The notes below the pieces were generated by a model that saw nothing but the letters and a program-made list of their open reading frames with translations, had not been told where the DNA came from and ran no database searches. Shown piece after piece: positions 17,464 through 24,060 of a stretch of 64,000 nt of DNA (position 1 is its first letter; every line of letters begins with the position of its first letter). The stretch covers positions 1 to 64,000 of the forward strand of contig JAIBEZ010000015.1 in assembly GCA_019459485.1 (NCBI GenBank), in the 5' to 3' direction. Made by a program: the position numbers and the translations under genes. The stretch is from Prolixibacteraceae bacterium (GTDB lineage: Bacteria > Bacteroidota > Bacteroidia > Bacteroidales > Prolixibacteraceae).

Positions 17464-18174
17464 TTACTTTTCATTCTCTTCCATCCACCTGGAAATAGAA
17501 TATTGAACAAACAATAATTCTTCAGGTTCAGGAGATAGGCAGACTTTATTTGTAAAAACCCTCCACGCAGCCCGTGCAGTTGAGTTTTCGTTGGCCAGAA
17601 TTAATGAGTCCGGATGAGGAAAATTTCCTGAAGCCTTAAAGCTGTCGATCCCTGCTGAGCTAAAAAACAGGTACGCATCAAAAATACCGTTAACTATTTT
17701 TTCAACCGGAGTATTCTTGTACGCTTCAAATGCCAAAAAAGGTATGTTTGAACCTAAAAATATGGAATTAATTTCAGAATGAAGTTGATCGCCATGTAAA
17801 AACAAAATGGTTTCACCCCGGTTTTGAGCCATTACCATGCCAGCAATTTCCTGGTGGTTTCCAAATGACGAAACAACGATAGGCAAATCAATGTTCCGTA
17901 AAATCGCTGCTTGTTTTTCCGACCAGCAAAATACCGTATCGGAGCCTGATAATCCCAATTGAGAATGAAAACGAACCAGCCAATGGGCTGCATATGAACT
18001 CGTAATTACCCATTGTTTGCTTTTATGAGCCACTGCTTTGAAGAGTTTTAAATCTGGTTTTTTATAGTCAATTTTAAAAAATGGCTCTTCAATGTATTGT
18101 ATATGTTGCTTTTTCAGCCATTGCCTTGTTTTTCCCGACAATTCTTCACCGATAAAAAATACTGGAGTTTTCAT
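17464..18174 (-). CDS. hemD: Uroporphyrinogen-III synthase (HemD-like)
   Basis: Closes hydroxymethylbilane to uroporphyrinogen III with inversion of ring D. Sequence conservation in this family is weak, but the two-lobed pattern and the loops WVITSSYAAHWL, DAYLFFSSAGIDSF and the NSTA segment near the C-terminus match. Its position between cysI and cobA makes the assignment strong, since it supplies the CobA substrate. The length is 236 aa. Confidence 0.82.
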   Translation of the reverse strand: MKTPVFFIGEELSGKTRQWLKKQHIQYIEEPFFKIDYKKPDLKLFKAVAHKSKQWVITSSYAAHWLVRFHSQLGLSGSDTVFCWSEKQAAILRNIDLPIVVSSFGNHQEIAGMVMAQNRGETILFLHGDQLHSEINSIFLGSNIPFLAFEAYKNTPVEKIVNGIFDAYLFFSSAGIDSFKASGNFPHPDSLILANENSTARAAWRVFTNKVCLSPEPEELLFVQYSISRWMEENEK

Positions 18175-18178
18175 GATA

Positions 18179-19879
18179 TTAGTGTTTAAAATCGCTTCCT
18201 TTTAATGTTGCTTTAACGTATTGCTTCCGAATAACAAAATCTCCAAATTTTTCACCATCCGTGCGGTTTTGCGCGTAATCGGCAATGATGGGTTTTAATT
18301 CTGCGAGAATTTCATCTTCGGTAAGCGTTTCTTTATAGAGTGTATTCAGGCGGGTTCCGTTAAAGTTTCCGCCCAGGTAGAGATTATAATGACCTTCCGA
18401 TTTACCAACAAAACCGATCTCGGCCAGGTAAGGCCTTCCGCAGCCATTGGGGCAGCCGGTCATGCGGATAACAATTTCTTCTTTAAAAAGGCCATGCTGA
18501 TCCAATATCGATTCGATTTTGGTTATCATCGAAGGCAGGTATCTTTCTGCTTCGGCAAAAGCCAAACCACAGGTATTCAGCGCTACACAAGCAATAGAAT
18601 TCTGGCGAAGTCCTGAAATTTCGCCTGGCAACACACTGAATTTCTTCAAAATATCGCTTACTTTCATCTTATCTGATTCTGAAACATTGGCAACTATCAG
18701 GTTCTGATTTCCGGTGAGGATAAACTGACCATCAATATGTTGTGCAATTTCACGAAGTGCTGACTTTAGTTTAAAATCGCCCCGGTTGGCGACGCGGCCA
18801 CCTTCAACAAATAAGGTCAGGCTCCACTTCGAATCTGTGCCTTTTTTCCAACCCAGCCGATCTCCATTCCGGGTGAACGAATACGGTTTGGGTTCCTGAA
18901 GGCTATATCCAAGGTATTTTTCCACCTCATTCTTAAACCAGTCGAGGCCACGATGATCGATGGTATATTTTAATCGAGAAAGTTTCCGGTTCTTACGGTT
19001 GCCATTGTCACGCTGAACCAAAACTACCTTTTCTGCCACATCAACCACCTGTTCCGGGTTACAATAGCCAATCATTTCGGCCAACCGTGGATACGTTTCA
19101 GGCATTCCGAAAGTGGTACCCATCCCCCCACCTACAACTATGTTATATCCTACAATTTGGTTGTTTTCGACAATAGCAATAAAACCTAAATCCTGAGAAA
19201 AAATATCCGAATCGTTATAAGGAGGAATTGCTACCGAAATTTTGAACTTACGAGGCAGATAACGGTCGCCATAAATGGGTTCAACATCGGTTTTGCTATC
19301 GGCAACCAGTTTCTCGTCGAGCCAGATTTCATGATAGGCTCGTGTTGAGGGCAACAAATGCTCGCTAATCCGGCGTGCGGTATCATAAACTTCGGCATGC
19401 AATTCCGACTCTGCCGGATTTGGATGGCACATCACATTGCGGTTTACATCCCCGCAGGCGGCAATGGTATCCATCAGGGCAGCGTTCATTCCCTGAATGG
19501 TTTTCTTCAGATTCGTTTTGATAACACCGTGCAGCTGGAAAGCTTGCCGGGTCGTCAATTTCAACGTATGATTGGCATATTGCTCCGATAAATCGTCCAT
19601 CTGTAGCCATTGTTTTGGAGTAACTACCCCACCCGGGATTCGCACCCGGATAAGAAAGGAATACGCCGGTTCGAGCTTTTGCCGTTTGCGTTCCTTTTCC
19701 AAATCGCGGTCGAACTGTTGGTACATCCCATGAAATTTGGATATTTGCGTATCGCCGGGCGCAATTGATCCCGTTATGGGATTGGCCAGGCTTTCCACCA
19801 GTGTTCCACGCAGGTAATTGCTATCGTATTTTAGCTTTTCTACTTCCGAGAGTTCGTTCCAGTTTATTGTATCGCTCAT
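18179..19879 (-). CDS. cysI: Assimilatory sulfite reductase hemoprotein (beta) subunit
   Basis: Reduces sulfite to sulfide by six electrons at a coupled siroheme-[4Fe-4S] centre. The four cluster cysteines are visible: two in IACVALNTCG (about residues 430 and 436) and two in TGCPNGCG (about 475 and 479), the last also bridging to siroheme. The N-terminal NYLRGTL motif and 566-aa length agree with E. coli CysI. It follows cysJ after a 126-nt gap that carries a 13-bp inverted repeat, and it is 4 nt from hemD. Confidence 0.95.
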   Translation of the reverse strand: MSDTINWNELSEVEKLKYDSNYLRGTLVESLANPITGSIAPGDTQISKFHGMYQQFDRDLEKERKRQKLEPAYSFLIRVRIPGGVVTPKQWLQMDDLSEQYANHTLKLTTRQAFQLHGVIKTNLKKTIQGMNAALMDTIAACGDVNRNVMCHPNPAESELHAEVYDTARRISEHLLPSTRAYHEIWLDEKLVADSKTDVEPIYGDRYLPRKFKISVAIPPYNDSDIFSQDLGFIAIVENNQIVGYNIVVGGGMGTTFGMPETYPRLAEMIGYCNPEQVVDVAEKVVLVQRDNGNRKNRKLSRLKYTIDHRGLDWFKNEVEKYLGYSLQEPKPYSFTRNGDRLGWKKGTDSKWSLTLFVEGGRVANRGDFKLKSALREIAQHIDGQFILTGNQNLIVANVSESDKMKVSDILKKFSVLPGEISGLRQNSIACVALNTCGLAFAEAERYLPSMITKIESILDQHGLFKEEIVIRMTGCPNGCGRPYLAEIGFVGKSEGHYNLYLGGNFNGTRLNTLYKETLTEDEILAELKPIIADYAQNRTDGEKFGDFVIRKQYVKATLKGSDFKH

Positions 19880-20005: not shown

Positions 20006-21784
20006 CTAATACACATCTGTTTGAAACCGTTTTTCTTTTTTCAGTGTTTTCAGGTATTCCAGAGCTTTTTCTTCACTCATGCCACCTTCAGTTTCAAAAA
20101 TCCGGAGCAATGTTTTTTGCACATCGCGGGCCATTTGTTTCATATCGCCGCAAAGGTAAATAGCAGCACCTTCGTTCAGCCAGTCAAATATTTCTTTCTG
20201 ATGTTCAATCAGGCGATGTTGCACATATACTTTTTCTTCCTGATCGCGTGAGAAAGCCACATCAATCTTTTCCAGGTAACCATCTTTCAGCAACTTCTGC
20301 CATTCAACCTGGTATAAAAAGTCGGAATGGAAGCGGCGTTCACCAAAGAACAACCAGGTTTTACCTTTCTGGTTATTGGCTTCGCGATGCTGTAAAAATG
20401 CACGATAAGGAGCAACACCTGTTCCCGCCCCTACCAATATCACCGGGGTTTGCTCATTTTCAGGAAGTTTAAATGCCGGGTTCTTTTCAATAAATACAGA
20501 AACCTGAGAGTCGATGTCAATCCTGTCAGCCAGGTAAGTAGAACAAGCGCCGGCACGTTGGCGTCCATTGTATGAATAACGAACAGTGGCAACGGTTACA
20601 TGTACTTCATCGCTAACAGCCGCCTGGCTCGACGAAATAGAGTACAGCCGGGGCGGGAAACTTCGCAGTATATCAGCAAATTCCTGCACTGAGAATTTGA
20701 ACGGGAAATCTTCCAGCAAGTCGAGCACATCGTGTCCATACAAATATAGGTCAAGCAAAACTTCATTTTCCAAAATTTCCTGAAGTTTTGTATTTCCGGT
20801 TCTTTCCTGATATTTCTGAATCACTTCACGATTTAATACCGTGATTTCCAGTCGGTTGACCAAGGCCTCCTGAAGTGAAAATTCGCCTTCCTTCACAGTT
20901 ACCAACTCGGTTCCGTTGAACCCAGTTTGTTTGAGAATATTTTCGACCAAAGCGGGTGGATTGTTAGCCAGAATTCCTACAGAATCGCCAGGCTCATAAG
21001 TAATTCCGGAACCTTCAAGCGAAAGTTCAACATGGTAAACCTCTTTATCCGAATCGCGTCCGGTAATCTTTACTTTATCAATTACGGTAGCGTGGAATGG
21101 ATTTTTGCGGGTATAATCAACACTTTTCAGCGAATTATCTACCGTAGTATTTCCCTGAGACAAATTTGCAGGAATTTCAGCAAAAACATCAGTAAACTGA
21201 TTGATCCATCGATCAACTTCATCCTCAAAATCAACATCAAGCGTAAGTATAGGAAGAATGGATTTAGCGCCGGCTTTGACTAATGCCTGATCGATGTCGA
21301 TTCCGGTTTTACAGAAGAGTTTGTAACTTTTATCGCCTAAAGCCACCACCGAATAATTAAGATTTGGCAATTGAGGTGAGCGTTTCCCGGTTATAAAACC
21401 ATGAAAATCTTCGGCCATCGCAGGTGGTTCGCCCTCTCCATGCGTGCTGACAATAAAAACCAGGTTGGTTTCCGATGTTAATTGTCTGATTTTGTACTCA
21501 TCCAGCGCAACCGACTGCACTTCAACTCCCCTTCCTGCAAGCTTTTCAGCTAATTTACCGGCAATAGTCTTACTCCGCCCGGTGTGCGTACCATACAGAA
21601 TTTTCAGTTGCTTGCTACTTTTCGCCTGAATGGGTGTGTTTGTTGTTGTTGAGTTTCCGGAAGATACCAGTAAACCCTGAAAATAGCCGTTAATCCAAAG
21701 CAGTTGCTCCCGGCTTAATCCAGCAGAAAGACCTGATAAAGCGCTTAGCTGCTGCTCGTTTAAAGGATTGAATTGAATACTCAT
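20006..21784 (-). CDS. cysJ: Sulfite reductase flavoprotein (alpha) subunit
   Basis: NADPH-dependent diflavin reductase that feeds electrons to CysI. Domain order: flavodoxin-like FMN domain (about 65-205, with LYGTHTGRSKTIAGKLA), FAD domain with PRLYSISSS, and NADPH domain with GAGTGVAPYRAFLQ, ending with the LKKEKRFQTDVY C-terminus typical of CysJ. At 592 aa it has full length. Its ATG overlaps the stop of the upstream precorrin-2 dehydrogenase gene (ATGA). Confidence 0.95.
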   Translation of the reverse strand: MSIQFNPLNEQQLSALSGLSAGLSREQLLWINGYFQGLLVSSGNSTTTNTPIQAKSSKQLKILYGTHTGRSKTIAGKLAEKLAGRGVEVQSVALDEYKIRQLTSETNLVFIVSTHGEGEPPAMAEDFHGFITGKRSPQLPNLNYSVVALGDKSYKLFCKTGIDIDQALVKAGAKSILPILTLDVDFEDEVDRWINQFTDVFAEIPANLSQGNTTVDNSLKSVDYTRKNPFHATVIDKVKITGRDSDKEVYHVELSLEGSGITYEPGDSVGILANNPPALVENILKQTGFNGTELVTVKEGEFSLQEALVNRLEITVLNREVIQKYQERTGNTKLQEILENEVLLDLYLYGHDVLDLLEDFPFKFSVQEFADILRSFPPRLYSISSSQAAVSDEVHVTVATVRYSYNGRQRAGACSTYLADRIDIDSQVSVFIEKNPAFKLPENEQTPVILVGAGTGVAPYRAFLQHREANNQKGKTWLFFGERRFHSDFLYQVEWQKLLKDGYLEKIDVAFSRDQEEKVYVQHRLIEHQKEIFDWLNEGAAIYLCGDMKQMARDVQKTLLRIFETEGGMSEEKALEYLKTLKKEKRFQTDVY

Positions 21785-22242
21785 ATTTGTGTGTTTTTAA
21801 GATTTTCTAAATAGTCCTGAATCAGGTTGCGAATGCGGATCGATTCATAAACATTCTCGGCATTTGAACTTACCGCCACAGAAATATTACCATCCTGATA
21901 AATGGCCGGCGAAACAAACTGGCAAAGTGCCGGATGGTCATGAATATTAACCAAAACACCAGTTTCCCTCCCGTCCTGCAAAATCTGTCGATCAAGGTCT
22001 TCATTATTGGTACACGAATAAAGCATCAGGTAACCTTTCAGATCGCTTTTTTCATATTTTTTCTGAAAACAAACTACTCCGGAAGCATAAACTTCGTCTG
22101 TAATATTTTCGGCTAACACTTCAATGTTGGCCCCGAACCGCTGTAAAATCCTGATTTTCTTGAAGGCGCTTTGTCCACCACCAATCACCAGTATTTTCCG
22201 GTCCGAAATATCGATGGATATGGGCAAAAATTTACGGGTCAT
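21781..22242 (-). CDS. Precorrin-2 dehydrogenase / sirohydrochlorin ferrochelatase domain protein
   Basis: Stand-alone equivalent of the CysG N-terminal module, which oxidises precorrin-2 with NAD and may insert iron to make siroheme. The Rossmann motif ILVIGGGQSAFKKIRIL and the family features DHPALCQFVSPA and ISVAVSSN are present. At 153 aa it lacks the extra C-terminal dimerisation part of yeast Met8-type proteins. The methyltransferase is encoded separately as cobA at the end of the same operon. It overlaps cysJ by 4 nt. Confidence 0.9.
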   Translation of the reverse strand: MTRKFLPISIDISDRKILVIGGGQSAFKKIRILQRFGANIEVLAENITDEVYASGVVCFQKKYEKSDLKGYLMLYSCTNNEDLDRQILQDGRETGVLVNIHDHPALCQFVSPAIYQDGNISVAVSSNAENVYESIRIRNLIQDYLENLKNTQI

Positions 22243-22254
22243 GTTGTTCTGTTT

Positions 22255-22485
22255 TTAAATCTGATAATCAGAATCTATACTTTTTAACCGTCCGAAATTG
22301 ATTTTGTTCCAGGTACGTTCGTGAAAATAATAAAGAATCATTTTGGTAAACACTTCTACTCCTCCAATTGATATGGCCATTTCTGGTTTTCCGGTAATGA
22401 TCAGGGAAATTATAATGGTATCAAGTGTTCCGATTGTTCGCCACGATATAGATTTCACCACGCTTCGGTACGATTTTTCACTCAT
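22255..22485 (-). CDS. DUF2061 small membrane protein
   Basis: A 76-aa protein with two hydrophobic segments and the SYRSVVKSISWRTIGTLDT start characteristic of DUF2061. Function is unknown. It is the first structural gene after the Cys/Met attenuator and is 12 nt from the siroheme gene, so its expression should follow sulfur demand, which suggests a role in sulfur assimilation. Confidence 0.85.
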   Translation of the reverse strand: MSEKSYRSVVKSISWRTIGTLDTIIISLIITGKPEMAISIGGVEVFTKMILYYFHERTWNKINFGRLKSIDSDYQI

Positions 22486-22509: not shown

Positions 22510-22541
22510 AAAAAAAGCCCCTCTGGGTTCCAGAAGGGCTT
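22510..22541 (-). terminator. Attenuator terminator of the sulfite/siroheme operon
   Basis: On the minus strand AAGCCCTTCTGG (22541-22530) pairs with CCAGAGGGGCTT (22526-22515) over 12 bp with one G-U pair and a 3-nt loop, followed by seven Us (22516-22510). It ends 24 nt before the DUF2061 start and lies downstream of the leader peptide, within the operon's own leader. Confidence 0.88.
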
Positions 22542-22566
22542 AAATATATTTTGGCAAATGACTTAC

Positions 22567-22680
22567 CTATATCCTGTTAACCTTCTGAAATGACAAATGA
22601 GAACACATACACATATACATGTTGGCGCACATGGCAGAATCCGAATTCATCAATACTATTTCAGAAGAAAATTGGCTCAT
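22567..22680 (-). CDS. Cys/Met-rich leader peptide of the sulfite/siroheme operon
   Basis: A 37-codon ORF in the operon leader encodes a peptide whose middle is MCANMYMCMCSH: three Cys and four Met in 12 residues. It lies between a TAnnTTTG promoter and an intrinsic terminator. The end of the ORF contains TTTCAGAAGG (22590-22581), which can pair with CCTTCTG of the terminator's 5' arm (22537-22531), so the terminator and this antiterminator are mutually exclusive. TTTCAGAAG can also pair with CTTCTGAAA near the ORF start (22667-22659). Ribosome stalling at Cys (or Met) codons would free the antiterminator. Starts at ATG 22650 or 22632 are also possible. Attenuation by sulfur amino acids is inference from this architecture. 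Confidence 0.82.
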   Translation of the reverse strand: MSQFSSEIVLMNSDSAMCANMYMCMCSHLSFQKVNRI

Positions 22681-22719
22681 CAATAAAAAGATTTAATGAT
22701 CTGTAATTATTCAATACTG

Positions 22720-22749
22720 CAAAAGTAAATTCTAATTCCACATTTCAAA
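22720..22749 (-). promoter_or_regulatory. Promoter of the sulfite/siroheme operon
   Basis: Minus-strand TTTG (22749-22746) and TACTTTTG (22727-22720), separated by 18 nt, match the -33/-7 pattern. The transcript would start near 22712, about 32 nt before the leader peptide ATG. Confidence 0.7.
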
Positions 22750-22833: not shown

Positions 22834-24060
22834 ATGGCCAAAGCGAATGTTTTCTATTTTAATCCAACCTGCGAGCTGGCTGTTGCCAATGGGTCTTTCA
22901 GCTACATGCCACCGCTTTTGCTTCAGGAAATGGAGCGTGATTTAGCTACGCTTCCTTTTGTTTTTGCCACTAAAACTGATTTTGTCCTTACGGATAACGC
23001 TCCATCAGAAGAATTTAAACAACAATTAATTAAAGCAGGATTTGAACTTCCGGCTTTTTGCAGCCTTGCAGAGCTGGAATCACTCCCACCAGATTCTTTT
23101 AATGCTATTCATCCATGGGGATGGAGCCCTGCTGCTCATTTTAAACTGAGAAACCTGAAAGAAAAGTGCGGCGAGGAATTTAAAGCCAGTCCCGCTTTTA
23201 ATTGGACAAACAGGCATAAAACGCTTTTTGAACGTTCCACTTCACTTGATTTTTTAATGGATCTACTCGATAAATACCCTCACGACGGATTTATTGATCG
23301 GTCAATGATCGGGGTTCGGGTTTCCGATACGGAAGAAATAGAGTCGCTATTGCTGAAAAATCGGGCATTGGTATTAAAAGCCCCGCTAAGTTCGTCGGGA
23401 AGAGGTATTCAGATCATCCGTAAAGAAGTGCTGAACAACTCGAACAAACAATGGATTTCAGGTGTACTGAAACAACAAAACTATTTGATTGCAGAACCTT
23501 TTCTGGATAAACTCATTGATTTTTCGTTTCAGTTCAATTTTAAAAAATCGGGTATCGACTATTTGGGTACTTCTTTTTTTGAAACGAACACGAACGGTCA
23601 ATATCAAGCCACATTAATTCGTCCTGATTTAAAGCAGATGTTGGCTGGAATTGAATTACAAAAACTGGAAACAAGGATTAACGCCATTGGTACAAGTATT
23701 CTGGAAGCTTTGCGTGATTCGGCATACGCCAAACTGCACCGGGGTTATTTAGGCGTTGATGCCATGATTTTTAATCATCAGAACCAGATAAGGATACAGC
23801 CATGTATTGAAATTAATTGCCGTATGAATATGGGTATCCTCAGTATGGTGGCAGCAACAAACATCCATGCAGGAAGTACAGGCTATTTCAGACTTTTTTA
23901 TGGGCAGCAAGGGAAGTATGAACGCTTTGCAACGGATCAGAATCAACTAAATCCATGGAAAGTTTACGACGGCAAGCCATATTCCGGATTTTTACCACTA
24001 GTGGAACCAAGCCCTCAAAAAAAGTTCGGAGCTTACATCTCTTTAGCTACAGCAAGATAG
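22834..24060 (+). CDS. ATP-grasp-like protein of unknown substrate
   Basis: A 408-aa protein with features of the ATP-grasp fold: a lysine-bearing nucleotide segment LVLKAPLSSSGRGIQI (about residues 178-193), GYLGVDAMIF, and a late metal-binding segment IEINCRMNMG. The N-terminal FNPTCELAVANGSFSY does not point to a known ligase. ATP-grasp enzymes join a carboxylate to an amine or thiol; the substrate here is unknown. It has its own promoter, and its 3' end overlaps the convergent receiver gene by 28 bp. Confidence 0.6.
   Translation: MAKANVFYFNPTCELAVANGSFSYMPPLLLQEMERDLATLPFVFATKTDFVLTDNAPSEEFKQQLIKAGFELPAFCSLAELESLPPDSFNAIHPWGWSPAAHFKLRNLKEKCGEEFKASPAFNWTNRHKTLFERSTSLDFLMDLLDKYPHDGFIDRSMIGVRVSDTEEIESLLLKNRALVLKAPLSSSGRGIQIIRKEVLNNSNKQWISGVLKQQNYLIAEPFLDKLIDFSFQFNFKKSGIDYLGTSFFETNTNGQYQATLIRPDLKQMLAGIELQKLETRINAIGTSILEALRDSAYAKLHRGYLGVDAMIFNHQNQIRIQPCIEINCRMNMGILSMVAATNIHAGSTGYFRLFYGQQGKYERFATDQNQLNPWKVYDGKPYSGFLPLVEPSPQKKFGAYISLATAR

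Follow-up and report, generated by a model that had tools for sequence, protein, structure and literature searches.

A putative leader-peptide attenuator with methionine and cysteine codons upstream of the sulfite-reduction operon of a Prolixibacteraceae bacterium

The window analysed in this work is a stretch of 64,000 nucleotides from a Prolixibacteraceae bacterium (assembly GCA_019459485.1, contig JAIBEZ010000015.1), and it carries an operon for siroheme synthesis and sulfite reduction on its minus strand. The genes and the domain models that they matched are the following:

22255..22485, minus strand: DUF2061 membrane protein, first gene of the operon (Pfam PF09834, E 2.2e-22)
21781..22242, minus strand: siroheme synthase resembling the CysG N-terminal domain, cysG(N) (TIGR01470, above cut-off)
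20006..21784, minus strand: cysJ, NADPH sulfite reductase flavoprotein (TIGR01931, above cut-off)
18179..19879, minus strand: cysI, NADPH sulfite reductase hemoprotein (TIGR02041, above cut-off)
17464..18174, minus strand: HemD-like uroporphyrinogen-III synthase (PF02602, just above cut-off, 29.2 versus 27.5 bits)

The gene upstream of the leader (22834-24060, plus strand, 408 aa) is divergent and had no Pfam match at E 0.001; it also adjoins the leader in a second copy of the region, described below. DUF2061 is a small membrane protein that often comes first in siroheme/sulfite reductase operons, and its relatives were seen in 38 IMG/VR loci. Nothing useful was found in the literature on DUF2061, and a candidate role for it in sulfur assimilation is worth testing.

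Between the divergent gene and DUF2061 we recognised, by sequence, these elements:

22720..22749, minus strand: Bacteroidota-type promoter, TTTG at 22749-22746 and TACTTTTG at 22727-22720, spacing 18
22680 to 22567, minus strand: leader ORF of 37 codons, from ATG 22680 to TAG 22567, MSQFSSEIVLMNSDSAMCANMYMCMCSHLSFQKVNRI
22658..22668, minus strand: region 1, TCTTCTGAAAT, near the ORF start; predicted partner of region 2 when the ribosome is absent
22603..22632, minus strand: putative control codons ATG TGC ... ATG TAT ATG TGT ATG TGT (MCANMYMCMC)
22581..22590, minus strand: region 2, TTTCAGAAGG, towards the ORF end; common to the 1:2 and 2:3 helices
22530..22541, minus strand: region 3, the terminator 5' arm, AAGCCCTTCTGG, also a partner of region 2
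22510..22526, minus strand: region 4, the terminator 3' arm (22526-22515) and the U run to 22510

TTTG / TAnnTTTG is the promoter consensus of the Bacteroidota, and a 5' UTR of about 35 nt before the leader ORF is expected from the promoter position. The terminator (22541-22515, minus strand) has a 12-bp stem with one G-U pair, a 3-nt loop and then the U run to 22510, from which 24 nt separate it from the ATG of DUF2061 (22485). Because the gene at 22834-24060 is divergent, this hairpin does not terminate a gene lying upstream. The promoter, the 37-codon Met/Cys-rich ORF and the 12-bp terminator 24 nt before the first gene had all been described in an earlier note on this DNA, and all are present, as a single leader-terminator unit in the window. 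The same note had proposed that region 2 pairs both with the terminator 5' arm and with the start of the ORF, and both pairings were found: region 2 pairs with CCTTCTGGAA in the terminator 5' arm at 10 of 10 positions, one of them G-U, and it is also able to pair with region 1 (22668-22658). The folding energies are -26.8 kcal/mol for 1:2, -17.3 kcal/mol for 2:3 and -19.7 kcal/mol for 3:4. For the window leader alone, 2 of 100 shuffles did as well as the observed 2:3 pairing, and 0 of 100 as well as the observed 1:2 pairing. The occurrence of at least 8 Met plus Cys in 36 residues has P = 1.6e-5 given the composition of the window genes.

A small hairpin (AGAT/ATCT, 22702-22689, minus strand) lies directly before the leader start. 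At the same position some genus mates carry AGAC/GTCT and Draconibacterium-type loci carry GTGACaaaaGTCAC, and given these variants the 5' hairpin may be kept.

A riboswitch or a known leader family (Rfam leaders, T-box, SAM) was considered and rejected, since there was no Rfam leader match: the window gave 0 Rfam matches at gathering score, and 13 relatives gave one tRNA above gathering score, three sub-threshold matches and nothing else. A search of NCBIfam with the leader peptides returned one chance match (E 0.83).

We then looked at the corresponding loci of the family, Prolixibacteraceae, as delimited by the names of the relatives, and with a covariance model (R1). Of 140 family genomes, 68 have DUF2061; 80 places were listed, and 71 of these were examined (L002-L032, L071-L110). 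A Met/Cys-rich leader ORF with a terminator was present at 54 of these 71 (53 by script and L019 by eye), and all 54 have TAnnTTTG no more than 420 nt upstream of the gene. The earlier note had said that its reading would fall if Cys/Met codons or hairpins were not conserved in relatives; in the 54 of 71 DUF2061 loci the codons, the hairpins and the spacing are kept, with compensatory changes. The other 17 loci have no terminator within 300 nt upstream. Five of them carry a leader farther upstream, before a hemA-like gene or cysD (L031, L071, L074, L098 and L099, which are the same as L186, L201, L198, L202 and L170), and L073 has an R1 match in the corresponding place farther upstream of the operon. 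Another eight loci (L103-L110) carry distant paralogs of DUF2061, and in L083, L100 and L101 no leader was seen, with weak R1 matches about 6.3 kb upstream of L083 and L101. Alignment A1 holds 47 of the 54 leaders, L088, L089, L091, L092, L095 and L102 being omitted as near-duplicates and L093, in which region 2 is not recognisable, as unalignable. Within the ATGTGTATGTG block no base is conserved in fewer than 90% of these 47.

Codons were counted in 52 of the 54 leaders, L020 and L084 being absent because the motif search missed them. Among 1646 non-start residues there are 206 Cys (12.5%) and 269 Met (16.3%), compared with 0.73% Cys and 2.5% Met in the 17467 codons of the window genes (43 ORFs). 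Together Cys and Met make up 29% of leader residues versus 3.2% in window genes, so that Cys is enriched about 17-fold and Met 6.5-fold. The Cys codons of the leaders are TGT 177 times and TGC 29 times, and those of the window genes 60 and 67 times. The order of the residues varies (MCANMYMCMC, MCMCMCMC, TMMCMCC, CCSCTFMCMMCCCCC) and the composition is kept, but L013 retains just one Cys codon. Frame 0 was open in 52 of 52 leaders and the other frames in 0 and 5, a test that is partly circular because the ORFs were delimited in frame 0.

The spacing of these codons is also regular. In the window leader the Cys codons lie 40, 22 and 16 nt upstream of region 2, and all 51 leaders having region 2 place a Cys codon 13-25 nt before it. 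Of 197 Cys codon positions, 128 fall at 13-25 nt and 44 at 28-34 nt, and the stop codon comes 12-24 nt after the start of the region 2 core. Taking the size of the ribosome footprint into account, region 2 would stay free with a ribosome at the Cys codons and be covered by one at the stop.

The pairings were examined by several approaches. When no pattern was imposed, 38 of 53 leaders had a best 2:3 pairing that 5 or fewer of 100 shuffles could reach; 33 of 53 had a best 1:2 pairing of this rarity, which does not always lie at region 1. For an anchored pair test the three segments were aligned on their cores in 53 loci (52 distinct, L093 omitted). Over nine pairs, 457 of 468 cells of 2:3 paired in register versus 177-268 of 468 when slid by 1-3, and for 1:2 the figures are 400 of 468 in register versus 198-291 of 468 slid. 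The cores had been located by pattern, so that core pairs are partly built in and the pairs outside the cores are the informative test.

Such pairs were found on both sides of the 2:3 core. The shuffle statistics for them ignore relatedness, which the slid and swapped controls correct only in part. At r2 -1, just before CAG, there is T with G or A in the window's genus and G with C or T elsewhere; this position is paired in 50 of 52 loci (shuffle mean 28.5, reached by 0 of 500), and 96% of own partners pair versus 3% in 1190 between-genus swaps. The position just after CAGAAG is paired in 49 of 52 (shuffle mean 41.2, 0 of 500). Farther out, r2 -3 pairs in 28 of 52, slightly above the shuffle mean of 23.0, and r2 -4 in 20 of 52, which is shuffle level (mean 18.6). 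In the 1:2 helix, the fifth core base changes from A-T to G-C in 5 Draconibacterium-type loci and is paired in 46 of 52 (shuffle mean 41.8, 0 of 500), with a change of like type at the adjoining pair in L010. The core C-G pair of 1:2 is intact in 42 of 52 loci and broken in 10, and r2 -1 pairs with region 1 in 30 of 52 (58% own versus 31% swapped). The 1:2 helix is weaker than 2:3 and is degenerate in Draconibacterium-type loci. In the terminator, 4 of 11 pairs are kept through two-sided changes. RNAalifold on A1 found the terminator as the only structure, because some rows have region 2 shifted out of alignment by 3 columns. These results point to 2:3 as a predicted antiterminator mutually exclusive with the terminator, with compensatory changes at two flanking pairs, and to 1:2 as a predicted protector helix. 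The case for an attenuator rests on the pairs outside the cores, on the codon content and on the other operons described next.

R1 matched 88 of 140 family genomes at E <= 0.01, the weak matches including plain terminators. From the listed matches we picked 40 family loci by hand, mostly away from DUF2061 and so a non-random sample, and the same leader architecture was found before other genes:

cysD-cysN: L170, L202
cysK: L184, L192, L193, L194, L197, L203, L204 (L191 has another leader type)
OsmC with cysK or thiS-thiF-like genes: L180, L182, L183, L189, L190, L195, L196, L199, L200
hemA-like GluTR with DUF2061: L186, L198, L201
carbonic anhydrase with OsmC: L171, L172
metY-metX-aspartokinase: L177, L181, L188

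The gene families were tested for one member of each kind (L170, L177, L182, L186, L192, L196, L172) and the others were named by eye. Seven cysK leaders hold Cys and Met at 27:18, versus 5:49 in six metY leaders (Fisher P = 7e-8, uncorrected for relatedness and with some peptides cut to an internal ATG), and the cysK leader L204 has no internal Met. All 6 metY leaders, all 7 cysK leaders and 7 of 9 OsmC-type leaders had a 2:3 pairing better than that of at least 57 of 60 shuffles. The composition of the predicted leaders follows the pathway that they would control, with Cys runs before cysK and Met runs before metY-metX. Similar leaders were also seen before carbonic anhydrase plus OsmC, DUF4395 and peroxiredoxin genes (L171, L172, L175, L178, L179, L137), hinting at a wider thiol or sulfur-stress regulon. 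Attenuators as a general feature of metY were rejected, for 51 of 60 fetched MetY loci (30 from the family and 30 from the class) have no unit within 420 nt and 9 have one; L248 had 62 nt upstream.

In the window's own assembly, a second colinear copy of the leader, DUF2061 and cysG was seen on another contig (L002, G000:C3:15006-18475; also L389 and L391), with 84% identity to the window in cysI and 75% in cheB. Its leader resembles those of the genus mates G017-G019, therefore a co-binned relative is likelier than a duplication. R1 found 21 matches in the own genome when E values up to 10 were admitted, among them the leader and its second copy. Eleven of the others were inspected and no clear leader was found in any, although one of the eleven, L217, contains a short ORF with 3 Cys that starts at TTG; on these 11 matches, a wider leader regulon in the own genome was rejected. 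With the pattern ATGTGYATGTGY there were 6 matches in the own genome versus 3 for the reversed control, and in L112, the one inspected of the five other matches, a leader was not evident. The own metY (L280) and cysK (L214) have no leader upstream; a second, distant metY relative was also noted (L281).

Beyond the family, R1 matched 111 of 395 genomes of the class at E <= 0.01. Inspection of 29 class loci gave 18 with a Met/Cys leader, 1 borderline case and 10 plain terminators. The genes behind the 18 leaders include nitrite/sulfite-reductase-like genes, OAH sulfhydrylase, cysH and peroxiredoxin. These 18 loci hold 31 leaders; 20 of them have a 2:3 pairing that outdid 57 or more of 60 shuffles, and 17 have region 2 at the ORF end. 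In the phylum, 10 of 296 genomes matched at E <= 3e-5, and 8 of the 10 are not of this class. All eight carry Met- or Met/Cys-rich ORFs. Judged by eye, seven of them are followed by a sulfite-reductase-like gene or by a metY-like gene, the latter either directly next or after one intervening gene; the eighth is L386.

Named relatives were covered by a DUF2061 scan, from which the best 80 of 144 loci were taken. By name, the kin of the window are Draconibacterium, Sunxiuqinia, Mangrovibacterium, Maribellus, Gaoshiqia and Prolixibacter (Prolixibacteraceae). A leader with terminator within 650 nt was found at 47 of the best 80 of 144 loci. As 38 of these 80 duplicate loci of the family set above, 42 are new, and 13 of the 42 have the unit: all 12 records under the names Marinifilum, Labilibaculum or Marinifilaceae, and L359. 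Within the same best 80 of 144, records of Labilibacter, Saccharicrinis, Lutimonas and Robiginitalea, as well as of Winogradskyella, Joostella, Hanstruepera and Crocinitomix, showed no unit within 650 nt, nor did the Flavobacteriia DUF2061 loci examined show a unit. A leader was seen at L373, a named locus. When 1500 nt upstream were considered, 52 of the best 80 of 144 loci held 64 leaders, with 2:3 beating at least 57 of 60 shuffles in 45 and region 2 at the ORF end in 62. Other terminators in the best 80 of 144 loci lacked a Met/Cys-rich ORF in 57 of 62 cases; the five with such an ORF share the strand of DUF2061 and are found 0.9-2.3 kb upstream of it, and four are the leaders of longer operons. 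DUF2061 contigs close to those of Bacteroidota were also seen under the names Sulfurovum, Babeliaceae, Sulfurospirillum and Gammaproteobacteria (L309, L341, L358, L371), and these are probably misbinned metagenome contigs.

Several loci outside the family carry two units in tandem, upstream of sulfur genes. Tandem units were found at 12 Marinifilaceae loci (L334, L336-L338, L346-L353), before metY-metX at L220-L222, where the first leader is without Cys, at 13 of the 18 class loci (L138-L141, L143-L145, L147-L149, L155, L161, L163) and at L387.

Taken together, the leader is very probably a ribosome-mediated transcription attenuator of the trp/his type for the sulfite-reduction operon, and the 1:2, 2:3, 3:4 scheme put forward in the earlier note gains support from the conserved codons, hairpins and spacing and from the compensatory changes. 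RNA polymerase would start near 22714 and the leader ORF would be translated behind it, the start site, the translation and the coupling all being predicted. With Cys-tRNA (and probably Met-tRNA) plentiful, the ribosome would reach the stop codon and cover region 2, the 3:4 terminator would form and transcription would stop. A ribosome stalled on the Met/Cys codons shortly before region 2 would keep region 1 off region 2, and the free region 2 would take the terminator arm (2:3) and allow DUF2061-cysG(N)-cysJ-cysI to be transcribed. If the leader were left untranslated, 1:2 would form and tie up region 2, and the terminator would form. We infer the stalling on uncharged tRNA, the signal and the direction of control. 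The signal read would be Cys-tRNA and probably also Met-tRNA; that Met is read as well as Cys in the window leader is likely because Met is constant here and the metY leaders are nearly pure Met.

Might the peptide itself act as the sensor? The nascent chain could bind a metal or a thiol reagent through its Cys, Met or His side chains and stall the ribosome, and copper- or stress-sensing leader peptides are a precedent for stalling that depends on side chains. Alternating Met and Cys could bind Cu(I), and genes for peroxiredoxin, OsmC or carbonic anhydrase follow some of the leaders. However, the arrangement is free (MCMC, CCC, CCCCC, MMMM) and the composition follows the pathway, with 5 Cys to 49 Met in the six leaders before metY-metX; the named target genes are mostly for sulfur assimilation; and the TGT preference, 177:29 versus 60:67 in the window genes, is a bias at the level of codons. 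We regard a side-chain sensor as very improbable. A leader that reads mainly Met-tRNA, with the Cys codons adding little, is unlikely, though a less distant prospect: the operon product is sulfide, which is first used for Cys, the cysK leaders carry Cys runs (L204 without internal Met), and the enrichment is about 17-fold for Cys versus 6.5-fold for Met. This has to be set against the greater number of Met than Cys in the leaders (269 versus 206), the conservation of the central-block ATG codons in 90% or more of 47 leaders, and the existence of Cys-free leaders before metY.

An ordinary terminator preceded by a chance ORF, with no regulation, is scarcely credible. It is true that R1 also matches plain terminators and that 10 of 29 class loci are without a leader ORF, but the window hairpin stands between the operon's own promoter and its first gene, with the upstream gene divergent, and the conservation of leader and region 2, with compensatory changes, already contradicts a chance ORF. 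It was rejected on the composition (P = 1.6e-5) and on the 57 of 62 other terminators without such an ORF in the best 80 of 144 named loci.

The attenuator reading may extend beyond this operon. We lean, with some reserve, towards leader-peptide attenuators for sulfur amino acids across the Bacteroidota, often in tandem, with a codon mix tuned to the pathway and a Met version that reads elongator Met-tRNA. Cys runs would serve cysK, a mixed content sulfite reduction, and nearly pure Met some metY-metX operons, while stacking in tandem would put several starvation checks in series. We know of no ribosome-mediated attenuator that reads elongator Met-tRNA, and a literature search for one found none.

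Ribosome-mediated transcription attenuators of the trp/his/thr/ilv type are those of enterobacteria. The likeness lies in a short ORF with codons of the pathway, in the 1:2, 2:3 and 3:4 helices and in an intrinsic terminator before the first gene. In contrast, the codons here are for Cys and Met, the control codons lie between regions 1 and 2, region 2 is inside the ORF and the phylum is different. Mycobacterial polycysteine leaders have reportedly been studied as well (Canestrari 2020). That type, as characterised in the text available, has a leaderless Cys ORF and no conserved terminator hairpin, whereas here there are a 5' UTR of about 35 nt and a terminator. The accessible part of one report terms the control by the mycobacterial polycysteine leader translation attenuation (PMC13236596). 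In Actinobacteria, cys operons have leader peptides with Cys codons, for which no conserved terminator hairpin was found according to the portion consulted (PMC1262725); a Cys-rich leader before sulfur-assimilation genes is common to both, but the present leaders add an intrinsic terminator, competing helices and an enrichment of Met.

uORFC-8-2, before cysS in Rhodobacterales, is described in the text seen as having tandem Cys codons and an intrinsic terminator and is predicted to act by ribosome-mediated attenuation (PMC8632094), in all of which it resembles the present leader. Its target is cysteinyl-tRNA synthetase, its two Cys codons are mostly UGC, it belongs to alphaproteobacteria and Met enrichment is unmentioned in that part of the paper (PMC8632094); here the leader precedes not cysS but DUF2061, and then siroheme and sulfite reductase genes. 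Cys-codon attenuators are thus already known or predicted in Mycobacteria and Rhodobacterales, as far as these partial sources go, and the one here would work like the trp/his attenuators. For the tandem units of the relatives (not of the window) the mgtCBR leader of Salmonella offers a comparison, with two ORF-based attenuators in series in one leader that respond to ATP and proline in the part of the report consulted (PMC3641672); the series arrangement is alike, but both of the relatives' leaders are Met/Cys-rich. Within the Bacteroidota, the full-text literature, with most subscription papers and all supplements outside the search, gave no description beyond general remarks, in the passages seen, on leader-peptide attenuation before amino-acid operons in Flavobacterium psychrophilum (PMC9723704) and on short ORFs and leader peptides in Bacteroides thetaiotaomicron (PMC7366714). 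As far as the authors of a 2010 paper knew, leader peptides had by then been demonstrated in no groups other than Proteobacteria and Actinobacteria (PMC2965389).

The control of sulfur assimilation in Bacteroidota is little described in the sources searched, and a shared class of attenuators before cysJI, cysDN, cysK, nitrite/sulfite-reductase-like genes and some metY would be a directly testable answer. Such a class would imply transcription-translation coupling in Bacteroidota and would name a candidate sensor of Cys and Met. The tandem attenuators with related codon content may also provide a natural system for studies of signal integration.
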